A stretch of DNA of 64,000 bases from Wenyingzhuangia gilva (GTDB lineage: Bacteria; Bacteroidota; Bacteroidia; Flavobacteriales; Flavobacteriaceae), in assembly GCF_030519655.1 (NCBI RefSeq), contig NZ_JAUMIT010000001.1, forward strand, positions 372,001 to 436,000. The letters are read 5' to 3'. How positions within the stretch are numbered: position 1 is the stretch's first letter; the number at the start of each line of letters is the position of its first letter. The notes under the pieces are model-generated. The model was not told where the DNA came from, made no database searches, and saw only the letters and a program-made list of their open reading frames with translations. Made by a program: the position numbers and the translations under genes. Positions 34,335 to 43,019 of this stretch are shown piece after piece.

Positions 34335-34787
34335 CTATTCTTTATTGTGGGAATCCATAGTAATGGTTACAGGTCCATCATTTACCAAAGCAACTTTCAT
34401 ATCTGCTCCAAACTCACCACTTTGAACTTTTTTAGAAAGTAGTTCTTGTAAACGTTTTTTAAAATTTTCGTAGAGTGGAATGGCAATTTCTGGTCTTGCA
34501 GCTTTTATATAACTAGGCCTATTTCCCTTTTTGGTCAAGGCATGTAAGGTAAACTGACTTACAACAATTACCTCTCCATCAATATCTTGTAATGATAAAT
34601 TCATCAAACCTTTATCATCTCCAAATATTCTTAATTTAATAATTTTCTGACACAACCATTCAATATCTTCTTGGGAATCTTCGGGTACAATTCCTACCAA
34701 CACCAATAATCCTTTCGCTATTTCAGCCACTTTTTGTTGCTCAATCGTAACTGATGCTTCACTAACTCGCTGAATAACTACTCTCAT
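34335..34787 (-). CDS. dtd: D-aminoacyl-tRNA deacylase
   Basis: Removes D-amino acids (and glycine from tRNA-Ala) from charged tRNAs, a translation proofreading step. The 150-residue protein has the standard motifs: MRVVIQRVSEASVTIE at the start, the active-site SQFTLHA motif (VVSQFTLHALTKKGNRPSY) and the Gly-cisPro-type loop NDGPVTITMDS at the C-terminus. The start codon overlaps the rsgA stop (TAATG), so translation is likely coupled. Confidence 0.96.
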   Translation of the reverse strand: MRVVIQRVSEASVTIEQQKVAEIAKGLLVLVGIVPEDSQEDIEWLCQKIIKLRIFGDDKGLMNLSLQDIDGEVIVVSQFTLHALTKKGNRPSYIKAARPEIAIPLYENFKKRLQELLSKKVQSGEFGADMKVALVNDGPVTITMDSHNKE

Positions 34788-35725
34788 TATTTAAAAACGT
34801 CTTGTCTATAATGTTCCTCATCTTCGCTTAATAATTGAAGATAACTTTCATACCTAGTTTCTGCTATTTTTCCTTCTTCCAAAGCATCTTTCACTGCACA
34901 TTTAGGTTCATTCAAATGAAGGCAATTGTTAAACTTACAATCTGATTTTAAAGCAAACAATTCAGGAAAATAATCTGTAACCTGATATTTATCAAAATCT
35001 ACCACTCCAAAGCCTCTAATTCCAGGCGTATCAATAATATAACCTCCAAAAGACAAGGGATACATTTCTGCAAAAGTAGTAGTATGTTGACCCTGCTGAT
35101 GTTGTTCAGAAATGGCTTTGGTTTTTAAATCTAACGTAGGCTCTAAAGCATTCACCAAAGTAGATTTTCCTACTCCAGAATGTCCAGCAAATAAACTCAC
35201 TTTATCTTTCATCAAGGCTTTAACAAGGTCGATGTTTATTTTTTCAGTAGCAGAAACATCAATACATTCATAACCAATACTGGTATAAATATATTTAAAA
35301 GCTTCTCTGAATTCATCCATTTCCTCATCATGTGTATCTACTTTGTTAAACAACAAAATAGTTTTGATGCTATACGCTTCAGCAGTGGCTAAAAATCGAT
35401 CAATAAAAGTAGTGGTGGTTTCTGGATTGTGTAGCGTTACAATTAAAAAAGCGATATCAATATTAGAAGCAATGATATGTGTTTGTTTAGATAAGTTTAC
35501 GGATTTACGAACGATGAAATTTTTACGTTCGTGAATTTCTTTAACAACTCCCGTTTCCTTTTTAGGTTCCAATTCAAAAGTCACCTCGTCCCCTACTGCA
35601 ATAGGATTGGTGCTTTTAATTCCCTTCATTCTAAACTTACCTGGAATTCTACATTGATGCACTTCTCCGTCTTCAGTTCTTACTGAATACCAACTTCCTG
35701 TAGATTTTGTAACAATTCCATTCAT
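34787..35725 (-). CDS. rsgA: Ribosome small-subunit biogenesis GTPase RsgA
   Basis: Circularly permuted GTPase that checks late 30S subunit maturation. The 312-residue protein has an N-terminal OB fold (TGSWYSVRTEDGEVHQCRI), then the permuted G motifs in the expected order: G4 LFNKVD near 130, G1 GHSGVGKSTLVNAL near 183, G2/G3 QHTTTFAEM and DTPGIRGFG, and the C-terminal zinc site CKFNNCLHLNEPKC. It heads the rsgA-dtd unit and follows the terminator of the aromatic operon. Confidence 0.97.
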   Translation of the reverse strand: MNGIVTKSTGSWYSVRTEDGEVHQCRIPGKFRMKGIKSTNPIAVGDEVTFELEPKKETGVVKEIHERKNFIVRKSVNLSKQTHIIASNIDIAFLIVTLHNPETTTTFIDRFLATAEAYSIKTILLFNKVDTHDEEMDEFREAFKYIYTSIGYECIDVSATEKINIDLVKALMKDKVSLFAGHSGVGKSTLVNALEPTLDLKTKAISEQHQQGQHTTTFAEMYPLSFGGYIIDTPGIRGFGVVDFDKYQVTDYFPELFALKSDCKFNNCLHLNEPKCAVKDALEEGKIAETRYESYLQLLSEDEEHYRQDVFK

Positions 35726-35858: not shown

Positions 35859-36941
35859 TTACTTAGAAGTAACTATTTCTTCTTGTTTGTTGATAGACTC
35901 TTGGTGAATTGCTTTAAAAACAGACTCGATAAATTCTTGGCTTAAACCAGATTTTTCTCCAACAGCAACCATGTTTTGTAAAATTTCTCCCCAACGAGCA
36001 TCTTGTAAAACAGAAATGTTTTTAGATTTTTTAACCTCACCTATTTGAACGGCCACTTTCATACGCTCAGCTAAAGTATCAATTAAGTGATTATCAATCA
36101 CATCAATCTCAGCTCTTAACTGTTGTAACTGATCTAAAGTTTCTCCTTCAGCTTTAGGCTTACGAACTTTTAAATCATTCATAATTTCTACCAAACGAGC
36201 AGGAGTAATTTGCTGTGCAGCATCAGACCAAGCTTCATCTGGAGTAATATGAGTTTCAATCATCAATCCTTCGAAGTTTAAATCTAAAGCGATTTGAGAA
36301 ATTTCTTGGATTCCAGTTCTGTTTCCACAAATGTGAGATGGATCGTTGATAATTGGTAAATCTGGGAATTGACGTTTCAATTCAATTGGCAATTGCCATT
36401 GAGGAACGTTTCTGTAACGAGTTTTTTTGTAAGAAGAGAATCCTCTGTGAATAACTCCTAAATTTTTAATATTTGCTTTATACAAACGCTCAACACCACC
36501 TAACCATAAAGCTAAATCTGGGTTGATTGGGTTTTTAATTAAAACAATTTTATCTGTACCTTCTAAAGCATCTGCTACTTCTTGAACCGCAAATGGGTTT
36601 ACAGTAGTACGAGCACCTAACCATAAGATATCAACATCAGCTTCTAAAGCTAATTTTACGTGAGCTACATTAGCAACCTCAACAGCAGTTAACAATCCTG
36701 TTTGTTCTTTTACTTTCTTTAACCAAGGTAATGCTACAGCACCAACTCCTTCAAAACCACCTGGTCTAGTTCTTGGTTTCCAAACACCTGCTCTAAATAC
36801 AGTTACATCTGTGTCTTTTAATTCGTGAGCAATTTTTAATACTTGCTCTTCTGTTTCTGCACTACAAGGTCCAGCAATTACTAGAGGATGATCTAATTTC
36901 ATGTCATCCAACCACGTTCTTAATTCTTTTTTGTTTTCCAT
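35859..36941 (-). CDS. Bifunctional 3-deoxy-7-phosphoheptulonate synthase / chorismate mutase type II
   Basis: Catalyses the first step of the shikimate pathway and the chorismate-to-prephenate branch step. The 360-residue protein has an N-terminal DAHP synthase domain of the KDO8PS-like type (about residues 10-255: VIAGPCSAETEEQV, FRAGVWKPRTRPGGFEGVG, NDPSHICGNRTGI) and a C-terminal AroQ-type chorismate mutase (about 270-350: LRAEIDVIDNHLIDTLAERMKVAVQIGEVKK). This domain order is typical of Bacteroidota. It is the last gene of the pheA operon, 18 bases after tyrA, and feeds prephenate to both PheA and TyrA. Confidence 0.95.
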   Translation of the reverse strand: MENKKELRTWLDDMKLDHPLVIAGPCSAETEEQVLKIAHELKDTDVTVFRAGVWKPRTRPGGFEGVGAVALPWLKKVKEQTGLLTAVEVANVAHVKLALEADVDILWLGARTTVNPFAVQEVADALEGTDKIVLIKNPINPDLALWLGGVERLYKANIKNLGVIHRGFSSYKKTRYRNVPQWQLPIELKRQFPDLPIINDPSHICGNRTGIQEISQIALDLNFEGLMIETHITPDEAWSDAAQQITPARLVEIMNDLKVRKPKAEGETLDQLQQLRAEIDVIDNHLIDTLAERMKVAVQIGEVKKSKNISVLQDARWGEILQNMVAVGEKSGLSQEFIESVFKAIHQESINKQEEIVTSK

Positions 36942-36959
36942 CTTAGTAATTATATACTT

Positions 36960-37808
36960 TTATTTTTGAATTCCTTTTAATACTTCCTTTATATGATTTG
37001 TTTCCAACATTGTTTTTTGCAAACCTTCTTTATTTTCTTCTATGATTAAATTCTTAAATGCAGTTAAATTATCTATATACTCATTTAATGAACTTAAAAT
37101 ATTCTCCTTGTTTTCTATAAAAATCGGAGTCCACATGTTTGGAGAACTTTTTGCCAAACGAACGGTAGATTCAAAACCAGAACCTGCCATGTCAAAAATA
37201 TTCTTCTCGTTCTTTTCTTTTTCCAATACTGTTTTGCCTAACATAAAAGAACTAATGTGAGATAAGTGAGAAACGTAAGCAATGTGCTTGTCGTGCTCTG
37301 CACTATTCATAAAAATAGTTCTCATGTTTAAAGCATTAAAAATATGCAATACTTTATCTACAGCTTTCTTACTACTTAGCCCTTTATCACAGATAATATT
37401 TACTTTATCATCAAATAAATTATAAATAGCCGCTTCTGGTCCAGAGTGTTCTGTACCCGCTATTGGATGAACGGCCACAAAATTAGTTCTTTTTTCGTGA
37501 TTTTCAACTGTTTTACTCAGTTTCTCTTTCGTAGAACCCATATCAAACACAATAGCGTTGTTTTTAATGGTATTTAACACATTTATAGCTAGGTCAGGTA
37601 AAAAATTTACAGGTACTGCCAACACAACCACATCACTGTCAGTAATTTGATGAAAGTCTACTATTTTATCAACTATACCAAGTTCTAATGCTTTTTGGGC
37701 ATTGTTGTTATTGGTATCGATTCCTTGAACAGTATACCCTAGACGTTTCTTTAATTCTAATGCTAAAGATCCTCCTATTAACCCTAACCCTATGATTGTT
37801 ACTAACAT
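36960..37808 (-). CDS. tyrA: Prephenate dehydrogenase
   Basis: Converts prephenate to 4-hydroxyphenylpyruvate on the tyrosine branch. The 282-residue protein starts with the NAD(P)-binding motif IGLGLIGGSLALELK (residues 5-19), has AVPVN after the nucleotide fold, FDMGSTKEKL and the catalytic His in HPIAGTEHSGPEAA, then the helical dimerisation domain. No ACT or chorismate mutase domain is fused; the mutase is supplied by the next gene in the operon. Confidence 0.95.
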   Translation of the reverse strand: MLVTIIGLGLIGGSLALELKKRLGYTVQGIDTNNNNAQKALELGIVDKIVDFHQITDSDVVVLAVPVNFLPDLAINVLNTIKNNAIVFDMGSTKEKLSKTVENHEKRTNFVAVHPIAGTEHSGPEAAIYNLFDDKVNIICDKGLSSKKAVDKVLHIFNALNMRTIFMNSAEHDKHIAYVSHLSHISSFMLGKTVLEKEKNEKNIFDMAGSGFESTVRLAKSSPNMWTPIFIENKENILSSLNEYIDNLTAFKNLIIEENKEGLQKTMLETNHIKEVLKGIQK

Positions 37809-37846: not shown

Positions 37847-38998
37847 CTATGCCTTTACCCTAGCTAAAACTTGTTCTAAATTTTCTTCCGAAACACATAA
37901 GGATAATCTTATATATCCCTCTCCGTTAGAGCCAAAAACAGTTCCTGGTGTGATAAATACATCTTTTTCGTACAACATTTTGTCTGTCATTTGTTCTGAT
38001 GTAATTCCTTCTGGTAGTTTTGCCCATACAAACATTCCTACATGACTTTTATCGTAAACACAATTTAAGCTGTCTAATATTTGATAAACAATTTGTCTAC
38101 GTCTGTGATAATGTTCATTGATGCTTTTAAACCAGTCTTTTGACAAGTGTAAAGCTTCAATGGCTCCTTTTTGAATTCCATAGAACATTCCAGAATCCAT
38201 ATTACTTTTTACTTTTAATATTTGGTCTAAATATTCTTGAGCTCCAACAAACATTCCAACTCTCCAACCTGCCATGTTAAAAGTCTTACTCAAAGAATTT
38301 AACTCTAAAGCAACTTCCTTAGCTCCTTCAAAGTTTAAAATACTTTCAGGATTTTCGTTTAACACAAAACTATATGGATTGTCGTTTACCAATAATATTT
38401 GATGCTTTTTAGCAAAAGCAATTAACTTTTGATATATCTTATTTTTGGGCGTTGCTCCTGTTGGCATGTGTGGATAATTGATCCACATGATTTTTACTTT
38501 CGTTAAATCTAGCTTTTCTAAAGCTTCCAAGTTTGGCAACCAATGATTGTTTTCTACTAAATCATAAAAAACAGGTTCTGCACCTACCAACTTTGTTACT
38601 GAGGTATATGTTGGATATCCCGGATTTGGCACTAACACCTGGTCTCCTGGATTTAAAAAAGCCATCGACACATGCATAATTCCTTCTTTTGACCCCATTA
38701 AAGGCAATACTTCTGTATCAGGATTTAACGTTACTTTGAAATTTGCTTGATAGAAAGAAGCCATGGCTTGTCTTAAGGCTGGTAATCCTTGGTAAGATTG
38801 ATATCCATGTGCTGTTGTTTCATTTGCAGCCGTATTTAATGCTTGTAAAACTTTTTCATCAGGTACTAAGTCTGGACTTCCAATTCCTAAACTGATGATT
38901 GGTTTTCCCGCTGCTCTTAGCGCTGCTACTTCTCTTAATTTTTTTGAGAAATAGTATTCTTTTACTTCGTCTAATCTGTTTGCTGCCGAAACAATCAT
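37847..38998 (-). CDS. Class I PLP-dependent aminotransferase (probable aromatic aminotransferase)
   Basis: A 383-residue PLP enzyme of fold type I: N-terminal LGIGSPDLVPDEKVLQAL, the cofactor Asn/Asp region LLVNDNPYSFVL, the Schiff-base lysine in LNSLSKTFNMAGWRVG, and the C-terminal Arg in GYIRLSLC that binds the substrate carboxylate. Placed between pheA and tyrA, it most likely converts phenylpyruvate and 4-hydroxyphenylpyruvate to phenylalanine and tyrosine; specificity is inferred from position. Its start overlaps the pheA stop (TAATG). Confidence 0.9.
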   Translation of the reverse strand: MIVSAANRLDEVKEYYFSKKLREVAALRAAGKPIISLGIGSPDLVPDEKVLQALNTAANETTAHGYQSYQGLPALRQAMASFYQANFKVTLNPDTEVLPLMGSKEGIMHVSMAFLNPGDQVLVPNPGYPTYTSVTKLVGAEPVFYDLVENNHWLPNLEALEKLDLTKVKIMWINYPHMPTGATPKNKIYQKLIAFAKKHQILLVNDNPYSFVLNENPESILNFEGAKEVALELNSLSKTFNMAGWRVGMFVGAQEYLDQILKVKSNMDSGMFYGIQKGAIEALHLSKDWFKSINEHYHRRRQIVYQILDSLNCVYDKSHVGMFVWAKLPEGITSEQMTDKMLYEKDVFITPGTVFGSNGEGYIRLSLCVSEENLEQVLARVKA

Positions 38999-39813
38999 TA
39001 CTTGTTATTTTTATATTCTCCTAATATTTTTAAACTCGACACCTTACTTCTGATGTCTACCAATGCATTTTTGTATTCTTGGTAATCCTCAAAAACCAAA
39101 TCTGCAAAAAACGCATATTCCCATGGGGTTTCTATAATGGGTAAAGATTGTATTTTAGATAAATTCACTTTGTGATTTGCTAACAACATCAATACTTCTC
39201 CTAAGGAACCACTTTCGTCTTTTAGCACAAATTTTAAAGAAGCTTTGGTCTCTTCAGGGTTGTTTAAAGACTCCTTCTTTTGTAAAATCACAAACCTTGT
39301 GTAATTATGTTTGATGGTTTGAATTTGTTCTGCAATCATTTCTAAGCCATATATTTCTGCTGCCTTATCACTAGCAATGGCTCCCACTTTTTTGAGTTGA
39401 TTCTCTTGAATTCTCTTGGCGACTTCTGCTGTATCTGTGTCCTCAATCAATTTGATATGAGGATAATCTTTAAAAAAACTTCTACATTGTAACAATGCCA
39501 TGGGATGAGAATACACCTTTTTGATTTCCTCTATTTTTTGACCTGGTAAAGTCATTAAATTTTGATTTATTCCTAAATAATACTCTCCAACAATGGCTAA
39601 ATTATTTTCGTCAATTAAAGTGTAATTTGGAATGATTGCCCCTGCTATAGAATTTTCAATGGCCATAACTAAATAATCTGCTGTTCCATTTAACAAAAGA
39701 CTAGGCATTTCTCCAAAAGTCATGCATTCTATCAACTCGATGTCTTCTCCAAAATAGTTTTCAGCTACGATATGATGAAATGACCCTTTTATTCCTTGAA
39801 TTGCTATTTTCAT
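38998..39813 (-). CDS. pheA: Prephenate dehydratase
   Basis: Converts prephenate to phenylpyruvate, the committed step to phenylalanine. The 271-residue protein has the PDT domain (IAIQGIKGSFHHIVAENYFG at the start, AIENSIAGAI and the conserved Thr-Arg-Phe in NYTRFVIL) followed by an ACT domain at about 195-270. In the ACT domain the usual Phe-binding motif E-S-R-P reads Q-S-L-P (KIQSLPI), so allosteric inhibition by Phe may differ from the E. coli type. First structural gene of the Phe/Tyr operon; preceded by a leader peptide and terminator that look like an attenuator. Confidence 0.96.
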   Translation of the reverse strand: MKIAIQGIKGSFHHIVAENYFGEDIELIECMTFGEMPSLLLNGTADYLVMAIENSIAGAIIPNYTLIDENNLAIVGEYYLGINQNLMTLPGQKIEEIKKVYSHPMALLQCRSFFKDYPHIKLIEDTDTAEVAKRIQENQLKKVGAIASDKAAEIYGLEMIAEQIQTIKHNYTRFVILQKKESLNNPEETKASLKFVLKDESGSLGEVLMLLANHKVNLSKIQSLPIIETPWEYAFFADLVFEDYQEYKNALVDIRSKVSSLKILGEYKNNK

Positions 39814-39827
39814 TTTCTTTTTTTGAC

Positions 39828-39855
39828 AAAAAAAAAGTCTCGATAAATCGAGACT
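39828..39855 (-). terminator. Attenuator terminator in the pheA leader
   Basis: On the minus strand AGTCTCGA, a 4-base loop and TCGAGACT are followed by nine Ts, only 14 bases before the pheA ATG. A full terminator between promoter and first gene implies premature termination. The 5' arm lies in 39847-39858 and can alternatively pair with GAGACTTTT at the end of the leader peptide frame (39891-39899). Confidence 0.85.
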
Positions 39856-39880
39856 TCCAGTTATGCTGTTTTATATAAAA

Positions 39881-39955
39881 TTAACACACGAAAAGTCTCT
39901 TTTCTTCCATAAAGAAGAAAAAATAATAAAATCCGTTAGTGTTAAATAATTTCAT
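39881..39955 (-). CDS. Phe/Tyr-rich leader peptide of the pheA operon
   Basis: A 24-codon frame, ATG at 39955 to TAA at 39881. It encodes MKLFNTNG, then FYYFFFF, then MEEKRLFVC. Seven Phe and two Tyr in 24 residues, with seven aromatic codons in a row at positions 9-15, is the hallmark of a ribosome-stalling control peptide. The operon behind it makes exactly these two amino acids. Bases TTTTCTTC within the Phe codons can pair with GAAGAAAA just downstream (segments 1 and 2). GAGACTTTT in codons 20-22 can pair with GGAAGTCTC of the terminator stem (segments 2 and 3). The frame is too short to judge by codon statistics; the combination of content, position and alternative structures supports it. 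Confidence 0.85.
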   Translation of the reverse strand: MKLFNTNGFYYFFFFMEEKRLFVC

Positions 39956-39973
39956 GTTCGTGATATAATACGG

Positions 39974-40004
39974 CAAATGTAAAAATTAAATCAACATTGA
40001 CAAA
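39974..40004 (-). promoter_or_regulatory. Promoter of the pheA operon
   Basis: On the minus strand TTTG (40004-40001), a 19-base spacer and TACATTTG (39981-39974) match the Bacteroidota consensus exactly. Transcription would start near 39967, about a dozen bases before the leader peptide ATG. Confidence 0.8.
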
Positions 40005-40106
40005 CATTAATTTTGTTTTTTTTGTTCAGTGTACTTCTCGATATTCATTTAATTTATTTTATTTCATAAATGCACTCGAAGTGACTGGGGGAAATTTTAG
40101 TTATGA

Positions 40107-40630
40107 TGCATCTCGACTGCGCTCGATGACCGATGGCGAGGATTTAGTGAAGAGTGAGAAGTGAGTGGTGAGTAGTGAGAAGTTCTCGGTTATAAGTTGT
40201 CTGTTTTTGAGAGAAGTTCTTCTATGTTCGATGTTTGATACTCAAGGGGGCGGGGTTGATGTTTAAAGTTCAAAGTTTAAGATTCAACGATGGAGAATTT
40301 CATGAGTACATGATTTATTCCTTAGATTTATCGGTTTAAGAACTGTTTCTTATTAGTATAGAGAGTGCATCTCGACTGCGCTCGATGACCGATGGCGAGG
40401 ATTTAGTGAATAGTGAGAAGTGAGAAGTGAGTGGTGAGTAGTGAGAAGTTCTCGGTTATAAGTTGTCTGTTTTTGAGAGAAGTTCTTCTATGTTCGATGT
40501 TTGCTACCCAAGGGGCGGGGTTGATGTTTAAAGTTCAAAGTTTAAGATTCAACGATGAAGAATTTTATGAGTACATGATTTATTCCTTAGATTTATCGGT
40601 TTAAGAACTGTTTCTTATTGGTATAGAGAG
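40107..40630. repeat. Near-identical direct tandem repeat, two units of about 260 bp
   Basis: Unit 1 runs 40107-40365 and unit 2 40366-40630; a third copy begins at 40631 but stops after about 25 bases. Each starts with CATCTCGACTGCGCTCGATG and ends with CTGTTTCTTATT followed by GTATAGAGAG. Unit 2 differs by a few substitutions and an extra GTGAGAA, so the duplication looks recent relative to the rest of the cluster. Confidence 0.85.
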
Positions 40631-41095
40631 TTCATCTCGACTGCGCTCGATGACCATATACAAACAGATTTATTTAATAACGAATTGAGAAATTTCAACT
40701 ATGAATTGATCAAGGGCATACGCTCTCTTAAAAAAGACTAAACGCACGAACATTCAACACATTATAATTCAACCTCATAGTATTCTATTCATTTTGCATC
40801 TCGACTGCGCTCCTTTATATTAGTAACGTGTATTTTTTTTAACTTTAGAAAAGAGAAAAGGAAGTTTAAGGTTGGGATGCTGAGACATATTCAGTGAACC
40901 TTGTATAAAAAAACTTAATCGTCAGTCTTCTATAAATCAGGATGGCTTAACAACACAGTTAAGGAAAGCCATATTAGCCTTTTAAGCTTTGTTATGCCTG
41001 ACACTTCTCGATACATTTTTTCGTTCCTCAAAAATTACTCGAAGTGACAATTTACATATCTAAAACTCTACAAGAAAGGAAGTACCCATATGAGC

Positions 41096-41127
41096 AAAAA
41101 AAAAGAGACAACTTTCGTTGTCTCTTT
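41096..41127 (-). terminator. Intrinsic terminator of the tRNA-Thr gene
   Basis: On the minus strand AAAGAGACAAC, a GAAA tetraloop, then GTTGTCTCTTT running into a T-tract; it starts two bases after the tRNA 3' end. Confidence 0.9.
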
Positions 41128-41129
41128 GG

Positions 41130-41203
41130 AGCCGATAATAGGACTCGAACCTACGACCTGCTGATTACAAATCAGCTGCTCTAGCCAGCTGAGCTATATC
41201 GGC
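41130..41203 (-). tRNA. tRNA-Thr (anticodon TGT)
   Basis: Complete cloverleaf on the minus strand: acceptor GCCGATA with TATCGGC, D-stem GCTC/GAGC with the loop AGCTGGCTA, anticodon stem GCTGA/TCAGC around the loop TTTGTAA (anticodon TGT), variable region AGGTC, and T-arm GTAGG-TTCGAGT-CCTAT. The discriminator is T and CCA is not encoded. Confidence 0.96.
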
Positions 41204-41213
41204 GTTGCGGATG

Positions 41214-41244
41214 CAAATATAGTTGGTTTTTACAATTCACCAAA
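41214..41244 (-). promoter_or_regulatory. Promoter of tRNA-Thr
   Basis: Minus-strand TTTG (41244-41241), 19-base spacer, TATATTTG (41221-41214), an exact match to TTTG-N19-TAnnTTTG placed 11 bases before the tRNA 5' end. Confidence 0.78.
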
Positions 41245-41640
41245 TATTTTTTTAATAAAAAATAGTGTTTTTTTTAGCCCGAAAATAAATCATTAAAAAT
41301 CAGTTAAATAGGAAGTTTTCATTGTTTGGCACTTTAACAAGCTCTGCAAAAGTATTTTGTTAAATTCCAAAACGCTACCTTGATCTGTTATGTAACGACT
41401 ACAAAGTTTATGCATTTATTGATGTTTTCTTTATTCATTTTTGCTTGATACTTCGATTAGCTCAATGCAAGTATAAAACAAACCAAAAATCAAGATATGT
41501 TTGGTGAAGAATGAGTGGTGAGAAGTTGTCTGTTTTGAGAGAAGTTCTTCGATGACCGTTGGTCGGGGTTCGGGATTTGGGTTCAAAGTTGAAAGTTCTA
41601 GAATTGGTAAAGAGTGAAAAGCGAATAGTAAATGTTGAAA

Positions 41641-41783
41641 AATAAAGAACTGCCTGCTACATAAACTAACCATCATGATTCTTTTTTAATTCTCATACTT
41701 TGTCTTGACACAAAGTACGCAAAAGTCAAGACTCTAAAAAGAACATTGCTAAAATTCTAATCTCATAACCGAAAACAAAAGAA
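41641..41783. repeat. Repeat unit A, copy 1 (short)
   Basis: Begins AATAAAGAACTGCCTGCTA and includes the hairpin GTCTTGAC / GTCAAGAC (41702-41709, 41725-41732). It diverges from the other copies after GAAAACAAAAGAA and continues into unit C. A preceding stretch (41510-41640) matches the sequence before copies 4 and 5. Confidence 0.85.
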
Positions 41784-41796
41784 ATTACTGCGTAAC

Positions 41797-41930
41797 AATG
41801 CTAAATATTATTATCTTCCAGCCCGCCATCTGGCTCGTTCACTAAAAGAATCTACTAGATTCTTTTTCAACGCTCCGCCCTGCTACGCACTTCCATGATT
41901 GCATGATTTATTTCTTAGATTTATCAATAT
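41797..41930. repeat. Repeat unit C, copy 1
   Basis: About 130 bp from GCTAAATATTATTATC through GCCCGCCATCTGGCTCG to GATTTATC; almost identical to 42615-42745. It contains the palindrome AGAATCTA-C-TAGATTCT followed by Ts, which could act as a terminator. Confidence 0.85.
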
Positions 41931-42308
41931 ATTCTATTCTTCTATTCACTGTTATCGATACTAGCTTCTTATGTTCATTTTGTCTTGATACAAAACGAAC
42001 CAAAAAATCAAGATAAATCTTATGAAATTACTACGTAACAGTCATTCCATCATTCCATGCTCTTTAGCTTTGCTACGCACTTACATGATTGCATGACTTA
42101 TTTCTTAGATTTATCGTTTTAGAAACTGTTTCTTATTGGGATAAAAAGTGCATCTCGACTTACTGCAACAAGCTCAGCACAGGCCGCTCGATGACTGATC
42201 ATGAAGATTAGTGAGGAGTGAGAGGTTGTCGGTTATAAGTTGTCGGTCTTTGAGGTTCGCACTTCGACAAGCTCAGTGACCTAAGATTAGTGAGGAGTGA
42301 GGAATGAA

Positions 42309-42580
42309 AAATAAAGAACTGCCTGCTATATAAACTAACCATCACTATTCTTTTTTAATTCTCATACTTTGTCTTGACACAAAGTACGCAAAAGTCAAGA
42401 CTCTAAAAAGAACATTGCTAAAATTCTAATCTCATAACCGAAAACAAAAGAACTCTCTGCGTTCAAACAGCTTTTGTTTTTACGGCCATTTCAATTGAAT
42501 TTTTTACGCAATACCCTTTTATGTCAATTAAATTCTACATTAATACTTCCATAAGCTCAGCACAAGTACAAAACGAACCA
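42309..42580. repeat. Repeat unit A, copy 2
   Basis: About 270 bp, from AATAAAGAACTGCCTGCTA through GTCTTGAC/GTCAAGAC (42371-42378, 42394-42401), CTGCGTTCAAACAGC and ACGCAATACCC to CCATAAGCTCAGCAC. Nearly identical to copies at 52930, 53513 and 54316. Confidence 0.88.
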
Positions 42581-42614
42581 AAAAATCAAGATAAATCTTA
42601 TGAAATTACTGCTT

Positions 42615-42745
42615 AACAATGCTAAATATTATTATCTTCCAGCCCGCCATCTGGCTCGTTCACTAAAAGAATCTACTAGATTCTTTTTCAACGCTCCGCC
42701 CTGCTACGCACTTCCATGATTGCATGACTTATTTCTTAGATTTAT
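42615..42745. repeat. Repeat unit C, copy 2
   Basis: Near-identical copy of 41797-41930, again directly after a unit A copy plus an ATCAAGATAAATCTT segment, so the order A-C is itself repeated. Confidence 0.85.
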
Positions 42746-43019
42746 CGTTTTAGAAACTGTTTCTTATTGGGATAAAAAGTGCATCTCGACTTACTGCAAC
42801 AAGCTCAGCACAGGCCGCTCGATGACCGATGGTGAGGATTAGTGAAAAGTGAGTGGTGAGTGGTGAGAAGTTCTCGGTTATAAGTTGTCTGTTTTTGAGA
42901 GAAGTTCTTCGATGGCCGTTGGTCGCTACTCAAGGGGCGAGGGTTGATGCTTAAAGTTTAAGATTCAACGATGAAAGTTAAAGGTGAGATGCTGAAACAA
43001 GTTCAGCATGACGAAACAA

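Follow-up and report, generated by a model that had tools for sequence, protein, structure and literature searches.

A very probable leader-peptide attenuator with Phe and Tyr control codons before the pheA operon of Wenyingzhuangia gilva and its relatives in the class Bacteroidia

The pheA operon of W. gilva lies on the minus strand of the 64-kb stretch of DNA analyzed here (the window), and immediately before it are found a short frame crowded with Phe and Tyr codons and a hairpin ending in a run of T residues. The question raised by this arrangement is how the operon is controlled. The parts, their conservation, the exclusive and covarying pairings, the spacing and the association with the start of the operon, all examined by sequence analysis, lead us to conclude that a ribosome-mediated (trp-type) attenuator in this region very probably governs transcription of the pheA-aminotransferase-tyrA-DAHP synthase/chorismate mutase operon.

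The elements, all on the minus strand, begin with the putative promoter element TTTG (40001..40004), designated −33-like after the Bacteroidota consensus. After 19 nt this is followed by the −7-like element TACATTTG (39974..39981), which is separated by 18 nt from the leader ATG at 39955. The leader frame, MKLFNTNGFYYFFFFMEEKRLFVC, consists of 24 codons and a stop codon (39881..39955) and contains no Trp codons; its codons 9–15 (39911..39931) read F-Y-Y-F-F-F-F, that is, five F and two Y. The pattern TWY x7, representing seven consecutive F/Y codons, occurs only once in the window, at this site, where 0.04 would be expected by chance (four of 100 shuffles had one). At the sequence level, and with translation predicted, this is the short frame with a cluster of product codons that is characteristic of trp-type attenuators. 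The sequence before the leader ATG lacks a Shine-Dalgarno sequence, and A is found at −3 and at −6. An intrinsic terminator stem-loop of 11 pairs, four of which are G-C, is predicted at 39833..39858, the sole one in 39600–40300 (0.3 expected); its U tract of nine T (39828..39836) ends 14 nt before the pheA ATG, placing it ahead of the first structural gene, again as in trp-type systems. The initial annotation had described this order of elements, the 24-codon frame with its aromatic run and the U-run terminator 14 nt before pheA, and proved correct to the base.

As to the TTTG-N19-TACATTTG promoter that it had also proposed, the Bacteroidota-style motif TTG-N17-22-TAnnTTTG is present upstream of 42 of 138 distinct leaders, compared to 0.7% of shuffled sequences, while neither the full motif nor its −7 part is found before 53 of the 138; by a sigma-70 scan alone the promoter does not rise above chance (three found, 2.8 expected). 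With the spacing of 4–5 nt between the −7 element and the start that is taken from F. johnsoniae (PMC6847099), transcription would begin approximately 4–5 nt 3′ of TACATTTG, giving a predicted untranslated region of some 13–14 nt.

Downstream, also on the minus strand, pheA (38998..39813) specifies a prephenate dehydratase with an ACT domain (Pfam PF00800 and PF01842, above cut-off; the NCBIfam prephenate dehydratase models score below cut-off) and would be the first regulated gene. It is followed by a class I/II aminotransferase (37847..38998; PF00155), tyrA for prephenate dehydrogenase (36960..37808; NF006307, above cut-off) and a DAHP synthase (DAHPS) fused to chorismate mutase (35859..36941; PF00793, PF01817). 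All NCBIfam matches to the aminotransferase are below cut-off and no aromatic-specific model ranks first; an aromatic substrate would fit the operon. Profile matches place rsgA and dtd (D-aminoacyl-tRNA deacylase) collinearly downstream (34335..35725), possibly co-transcribed with the aromatic operon. The enzymes of the Phe and Tyr branches are thus found together with the enzyme through which the entire aromatic pathway is entered, and the earlier statement that the operon makes both amino acids is borne out by the presence of both pheA and tyrA. The order pheA-AAT-tyrA-DAHPS is retained in 78 of 80 named relatives, the two exceptions being one contig too short for DAHPS and one locus without a detected tyrA; 44 of the 80 have the complete order through to dtd.

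PheA matches were obtained from 44 of 60 relatives, 268 of 299 family genomes and 172 of 198 phylum genomes, in addition to the 80 named genome loci. The set examined comprises 182 loci (up to L182) with 173 distinct upstream regions; it is biased toward close PheA matches, and many of its members come from one family. A leader was scored where a frame with at least five aromatic residues in nine was followed by a terminator within 200 nt. The initial annotation had held that a lack of conservation of the frame or the arms in close relatives would speak against it; such a leader and terminator precede pheA in 165 of the 173 distinct regions, in 28 of 30 loci from the 60-relative sample and in 24 of 28 loci outside Flavobacteriales. 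Leaders are present in eight of the nine families of the class Bacteroidia examined (f1, f9, f15, f17, f18, f19, f22, and f23, not f5). In a control by a similar test on the 80 named loci, 68 of 78 pheA genes scored versus eight of 593 other genes. As the aromatic frame alone was found at 58 of these 593 genes, the specificity lies in the combination of frame and terminator.

Four of the eight misses possess a leader elsewhere. In L151–L153 the gene order is DAHPS-aroB-aroA-pheA (Pfam bears out the gene families in the one genome checked, L231) and the leader, for example MLITAAIYFTFFYFYFRSQNRIGAVYCPVKN, lies with its terminator before DAHPS, from which it appears that the attenuator tracks the start of the aromatic operon and not pheA itself. 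In the fourth, L019, approximately 650 bp separate the leader from pheA, with repeated sequence in between. No leader was found at L020, L178, L180 and L181 (four of the 173 regions); at each, an open stretch on the same strand reaches to 12–36 nt before pheA, which may therefore be internal to another transcript. The repeats between the aromatic leader and pheA (L019/L234) come in blocks of about 110 bp bounded by CGGGAT, an arrangement suggestive of an insertion that pushed leader and gene apart.

One critical question is which amino acids would be sensed. In the 138 distinct leaders F, Y and W account for 23.2%, 14.6% and 2.3% of residues, the values for six neighboring window proteins being 4.6%, 3.6% and 1.1%; the richness in F and Y is partly by construction, the leaders having been selected for F/Y/W clusters. 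Among 285 close and non-independent leader pairs, changes in the aromatic codons fell at position 3 in 198 cases, at position 2 in 165 and at position 1 in 30. Leader composition, together with operon content, suggests dual sensing of Phe and Tyr. An attenuator that effectively senses Phe alone (or Tyr alone), with the remaining codons as passengers, would agree with the excess of F over Y in the control run of W. gilva and with classical enterobacterial pheA leaders, whose control codons are Phe. We regard this as unlikely given that both F and Y are present in 138 of 138 distinct leaders (selected for aromatic content), that the commonest aromatic-codon change is an F/Y exchange at the same codon (111 pairwise cases in the same non-independent pairs) and that the operon holds both pheA and tyrA. 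W occurs in 72 of the 138 leaders, in 65 of these inside the cluster or within the four residues before it; Trp sensing is possible in some lineages, the leader of W. gilva excepted.

The leader RNA of the proposed dual Phe and Tyr attenuator folds with −35 kcal/mol (z = −5.48), a value equalled by none of 200 shuffles. Arm 2 (GAGACTTTT, 39891..39899, minus strand), the 5′ side of the antiterminator, starts 11 nt past the last aromatic codon and lies within the leader frame. It pairs with arm 3 (GGAAGTCTC, 39850..39858, minus strand), which is common to the antiterminator (2:3) and the terminator (3:4). Covariation of the arms was assessed in an alignment of 30 leaders. For the terminator, 96.3% of cells are paired, eight of ten pairs have changed on both sides and the covariation score was unmatched by 500 shuffles (0/500) or by any slid version. 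For the antiterminator, 85.1% of cells are paired and the score of 0.258, versus 0.170 in shuffled alignments, was reached by none of 500 shuffles, slid versions being lower; two count measures were not above the shuffles (44 and 108 of 500 reach them), and sliding the pairing by one column gave equal values. In 14 of the 30 leaders, W. gilva among them, the outermost antiterminator pair (col 80:144) is disrupted.

Across 125 distinct loci the native arm 2:3 duplexes average −13.1 kcal/mol versus −9.3 with partners swapped (0/5000 permutations), although such permutation values overstate independence, PheA similarity having been the basis of selection and relatedness being common among the loci. 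Against dinucleotide shuffles, p ≤ 0.05 was obtained in 149 of 154 cases, with p = 0.01 for W. gilva; because arm 2 was picked by best duplex, only these swap and shuffle comparisons are meaningful. Arm 3 being shared, any change in it calls for matching changes in both arm 2 and arm 4, and three-way changes of arms 2/3/4 do recur across loci (GAGAC/GTCTC/GAGAC, GGGAC/GTCCC/GGGAC, and AGGAT/ATCCT/AGGAT). On average 8.1 positions of arm 3 are paired in both structures (127 loci), making antiterminator and terminator mutually exclusive. The exclusive 2:3 and 3:4 pairings of the initial annotation, with arm 3 common to both and arms that covary, thus stand. The 1:2 pairing that accompanied them, TTTTCTTC:GAAGAAAA, covaries in the leader alignment no better than shuffles and does not overlap the 2:3 arm, and as a conserved element this hairpin was set aside for want of covariation. 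A larger 1:2 fold, predicted for the first half of the leader when free of ribosomes, gives a weak signal, with 63.3% of cells paired and shuffles doing as well on two of the five measures. The consensus fold of the 30 leaders consists of the terminator stem only, and beyond that stem the antiterminator was the sole supported pairing found in the alignment.

The spacing of these parts is tight. The terminator stem ends 114–143 nt from the leader AUG in 134 of 136 loci, the last aromatic codon is 5–24 nt from arm 2 (mode 11; 136 loci) and the leader stop codon lies 3′ of the start of arm 2 in 130 of 136. Judged by the footprint of the E. coli ribosome, arm 2 would stay free while a ribosome is stalled on the control codons and would be covered by one that has reached the stop codon, which is the spacing of a trp-type attenuator. 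A Shine-Dalgarno-like 4-mer is present at the leader start in three of 138 leaders, while A is found at −3 in 98 and at −6 in 82 of 136; in F. johnsoniae, ribosome profiling has pointed to A residues at −3, −6, −12 and −13 as likely positive determinants (PMC6847099).

Could the aromatic peptide instead be a functional small protein, such as a membrane peptide, with the hairpin as its terminator and pheA expressed from another promoter? That the frame is well conserved, hydrophobic and widespread speaks for such a protein, but outside the aromatic cluster the peptides vary in length and sequence among relatives, and arm 2, in W. gilva inside the frame, covaries with arm 3 outside it. Furthermore, the 14-nt gap between the U tract and pheA is too short for an intervening promoter, and the leader and terminator head the aromatic operon even when its first gene is not pheA, so that we consider this explanation highly improbable. 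An attenuator sensing a protein or metabolite (riboswitch or T-box-like), with the short frame incidental, is scarcely credible, for while a terminator with an alternative pairing is common among attenuators, Rfam at gathering thresholds matches only a tRNA elsewhere in the window, the 30 leaders reveal no domain beyond the terminator stem and antiterminator, and the aromatic frame is kept at the codon level.

For the ribosome-mediated attenuator we infer the start and termination of transcription, the stalling of the ribosome and the sufficiency of either Phe or Tyr as follows. RNA polymerase would start approximately 13–14 nt 5′ of the leader AUG, where ribosome loading would proceed without a Shine-Dalgarno sequence. 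With charged tRNA-Phe and tRNA-Tyr plentiful, the ribosome would reach the stop codon and cover arm 2, arms 3 and 4 would form the terminator and transcription would end before pheA. Should tRNA-Phe or tRNA-Tyr become scarce, the ribosome would stall at codons 9–15, with 11 nt or more still between it and arm 2, which would then be free to capture arm 3; no terminator would form and the operon would be transcribed.

Leader-peptide attenuation is a classical mechanism. The enterobacterial PheL and pheST leaders encode an aromatic leader peptide, the stalled ribosome selecting between an antiterminator and a U-run terminator, and the genes downstream function in the biosynthesis or charging of Phe. 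The W. gilva leader, known from its sequence, resembles them in its aromatic peptide, in the predicted choice of antiterminator or U-run terminator and in the Phe biosynthesis gene that follows; it differs in having no detectable homology to them, in mixing in Tyr codons, in lacking a Shine-Dalgarno sequence and in heading an operon that adds tyrA and DAHP synthase. A Rfam search of the 64-kb window at gathering thresholds gave no match to the pheA leader region. When a 501-base region was searched at a lowered threshold, RF01859 (Phe_leader) had the top bit score, 22.9 bits (gathering score 55; E = 0.17), and unrelated families scored alike (a Streptococcus sRNA at 22.8 bits, a human lncRNA with E = 0.1), which puts the RF01859 score at chance level; this family was accordingly ruled out for the leader. 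Multivalent attenuators, in which one leader responds to several product tRNAs, are known from the E. coli thr (Thr/Ile) and ilvGMEDA (Leu/Val/Ile) operons. The leader proposed here would be similar in serving several product tRNAs, but of the aromatic family: Phe and Tyr, with Trp in some lineages.

Within the Bacteroidota, Bacteroid-trp (RF01692) is listed as a cis-regulatory candidate (PMC2864571). It is likewise a Bacteroidota leader element, differing in its Trp codons and trp gene. In the window it gave no match at the gathering threshold, and none at E up to 10 in 39700–40200; its one match in the W. gilva genome is elsewhere, at 46.7 bits versus a cut-off of 49. This sub-cut-off match (L183; C1:575163-575284, minus strand) precedes a gene for anthranilate synthase component I (Pfam), and near it lie a frame, MKLDRKNTWWWYTLN, with WWWY and, by inspection, a terminator-like hairpin. 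Taken beside the pheA leader, it would appear that W. gilva splits aromatic control between two attenuators.

The setting in a Bacteroidota genome with weak use of Shine-Dalgarno sequences, pointed out in the initial annotation, was upheld as to the absence of such a sequence; it is not wholly new. In a 2021 transcriptome paper on F. psychrophilum, pheA is described as preceded by a structured 5′ element that has no Rfam hits and is shared with other genera of the Flavobacteriaceae, and section 19 of the paper speaks of "strong clues" for leader-peptide attenuation before amino-acid operons (PMC9723704). That element precedes the same gene in the same family as the W. gilva leader; section 19 gives no leader sequence, arms or spread beyond the family, to which the supplement of the paper may add. 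A B. thetaiotaomicron map notes short frames that recall leader peptides (PMC7366714). Among the matches listed in a search that excluded subscription papers and supplements, PMC9723704 was the sole paper on pheA attenuation in Bacteroidota. New here are the anatomy, the occurrence in eight of nine families of the class, the apparent transfers to other classes and the tandem copies. With a classical mechanism and this earlier report, the attenuator is best described as partly reported, with a new comparative anatomy.

The spread was also followed with a covariance model (R1) that includes the W. gilva leader. In the W. gilva genome R1 assigns 108.7 bits to the pheA leader, by construction, and 34.7 bits to the next match. 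The seven next-best places are not near pheA; for detecting additional aromatic attenuators across a genome, R1 was rejected. At E ≤ 0.01, matches were obtained in 99 of 198 class genomes, a figure that is not a count of pheA leaders since many of the listed matches are confined to the 3′ half of R1. Of its best 20 class-wide matches, 19 are before pheA; at the other, L230, no aromatic leader was seen at the match itself, one frame passing the loose criterion being located about 1.6 kb away.

In 20 further genomes of other classes with a distant PheA, no leader with terminator was found in the region adjoining pheA, to which the scan was confined; two of them have a weak TTG-started frame without a terminator. 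The leader is present in four other-class genomes with a Bacteroidia-like PheA (L158, L161, L167, and L174). In a tree of 50 PheA proteins, a 100/100 branch divides these four, which fall with the Bacteroidia, from 16 leaderless other-class rows, and at least three label changes are forced; this small tree was rooted at its midpoint, and support for the precise positions of L158, L161 and L167 is weak. The simplest reading would be horizontal transfer of operon and attenuator together. We think it an evenly balanced proposition that the class Bacteroidia possesses a single ancient, Shine-Dalgarno-independent master sensor of Phe and Tyr, and of Trp in about half of the distinct leaders, which would set DAHP synthase and both terminal branches, move with a rearranged or transferred operon and sometimes occur in tandem.

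For classical attenuation to work, translation must be tightly coupled to transcription and ribosomes must load promptly. The conservation of an attenuator across families whose mRNAs lack Shine-Dalgarno sequences would imply that coupling and fast initiation without such sequences are reliable there, and the attenuator could provide a clean native reporter for testing both. The pheA leader is also a candidate Rfam family, and its recognition allows the regulation of a core biosynthetic operon to be annotated in many genomes.

Tandem aromatic leader frames were observed before pheA in three genomes outside Flavobacteriales (L177, L171, and L166). Both frames are followed by terminators in L177 and L166; in L171 a terminator for the second frame was not found. 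In the W. gilva window itself, 40040–43000 is a stretch of approximately 3 kb without long frames, containing near-copies of blocks such as GCATCTCGACTGCGCTCGATGACCGATGG and AGTGAGAAGTGAGTGGTGAGTAG, and amid these repeated blocks lies a tRNA-Thr gene (41127–41203, minus strand).
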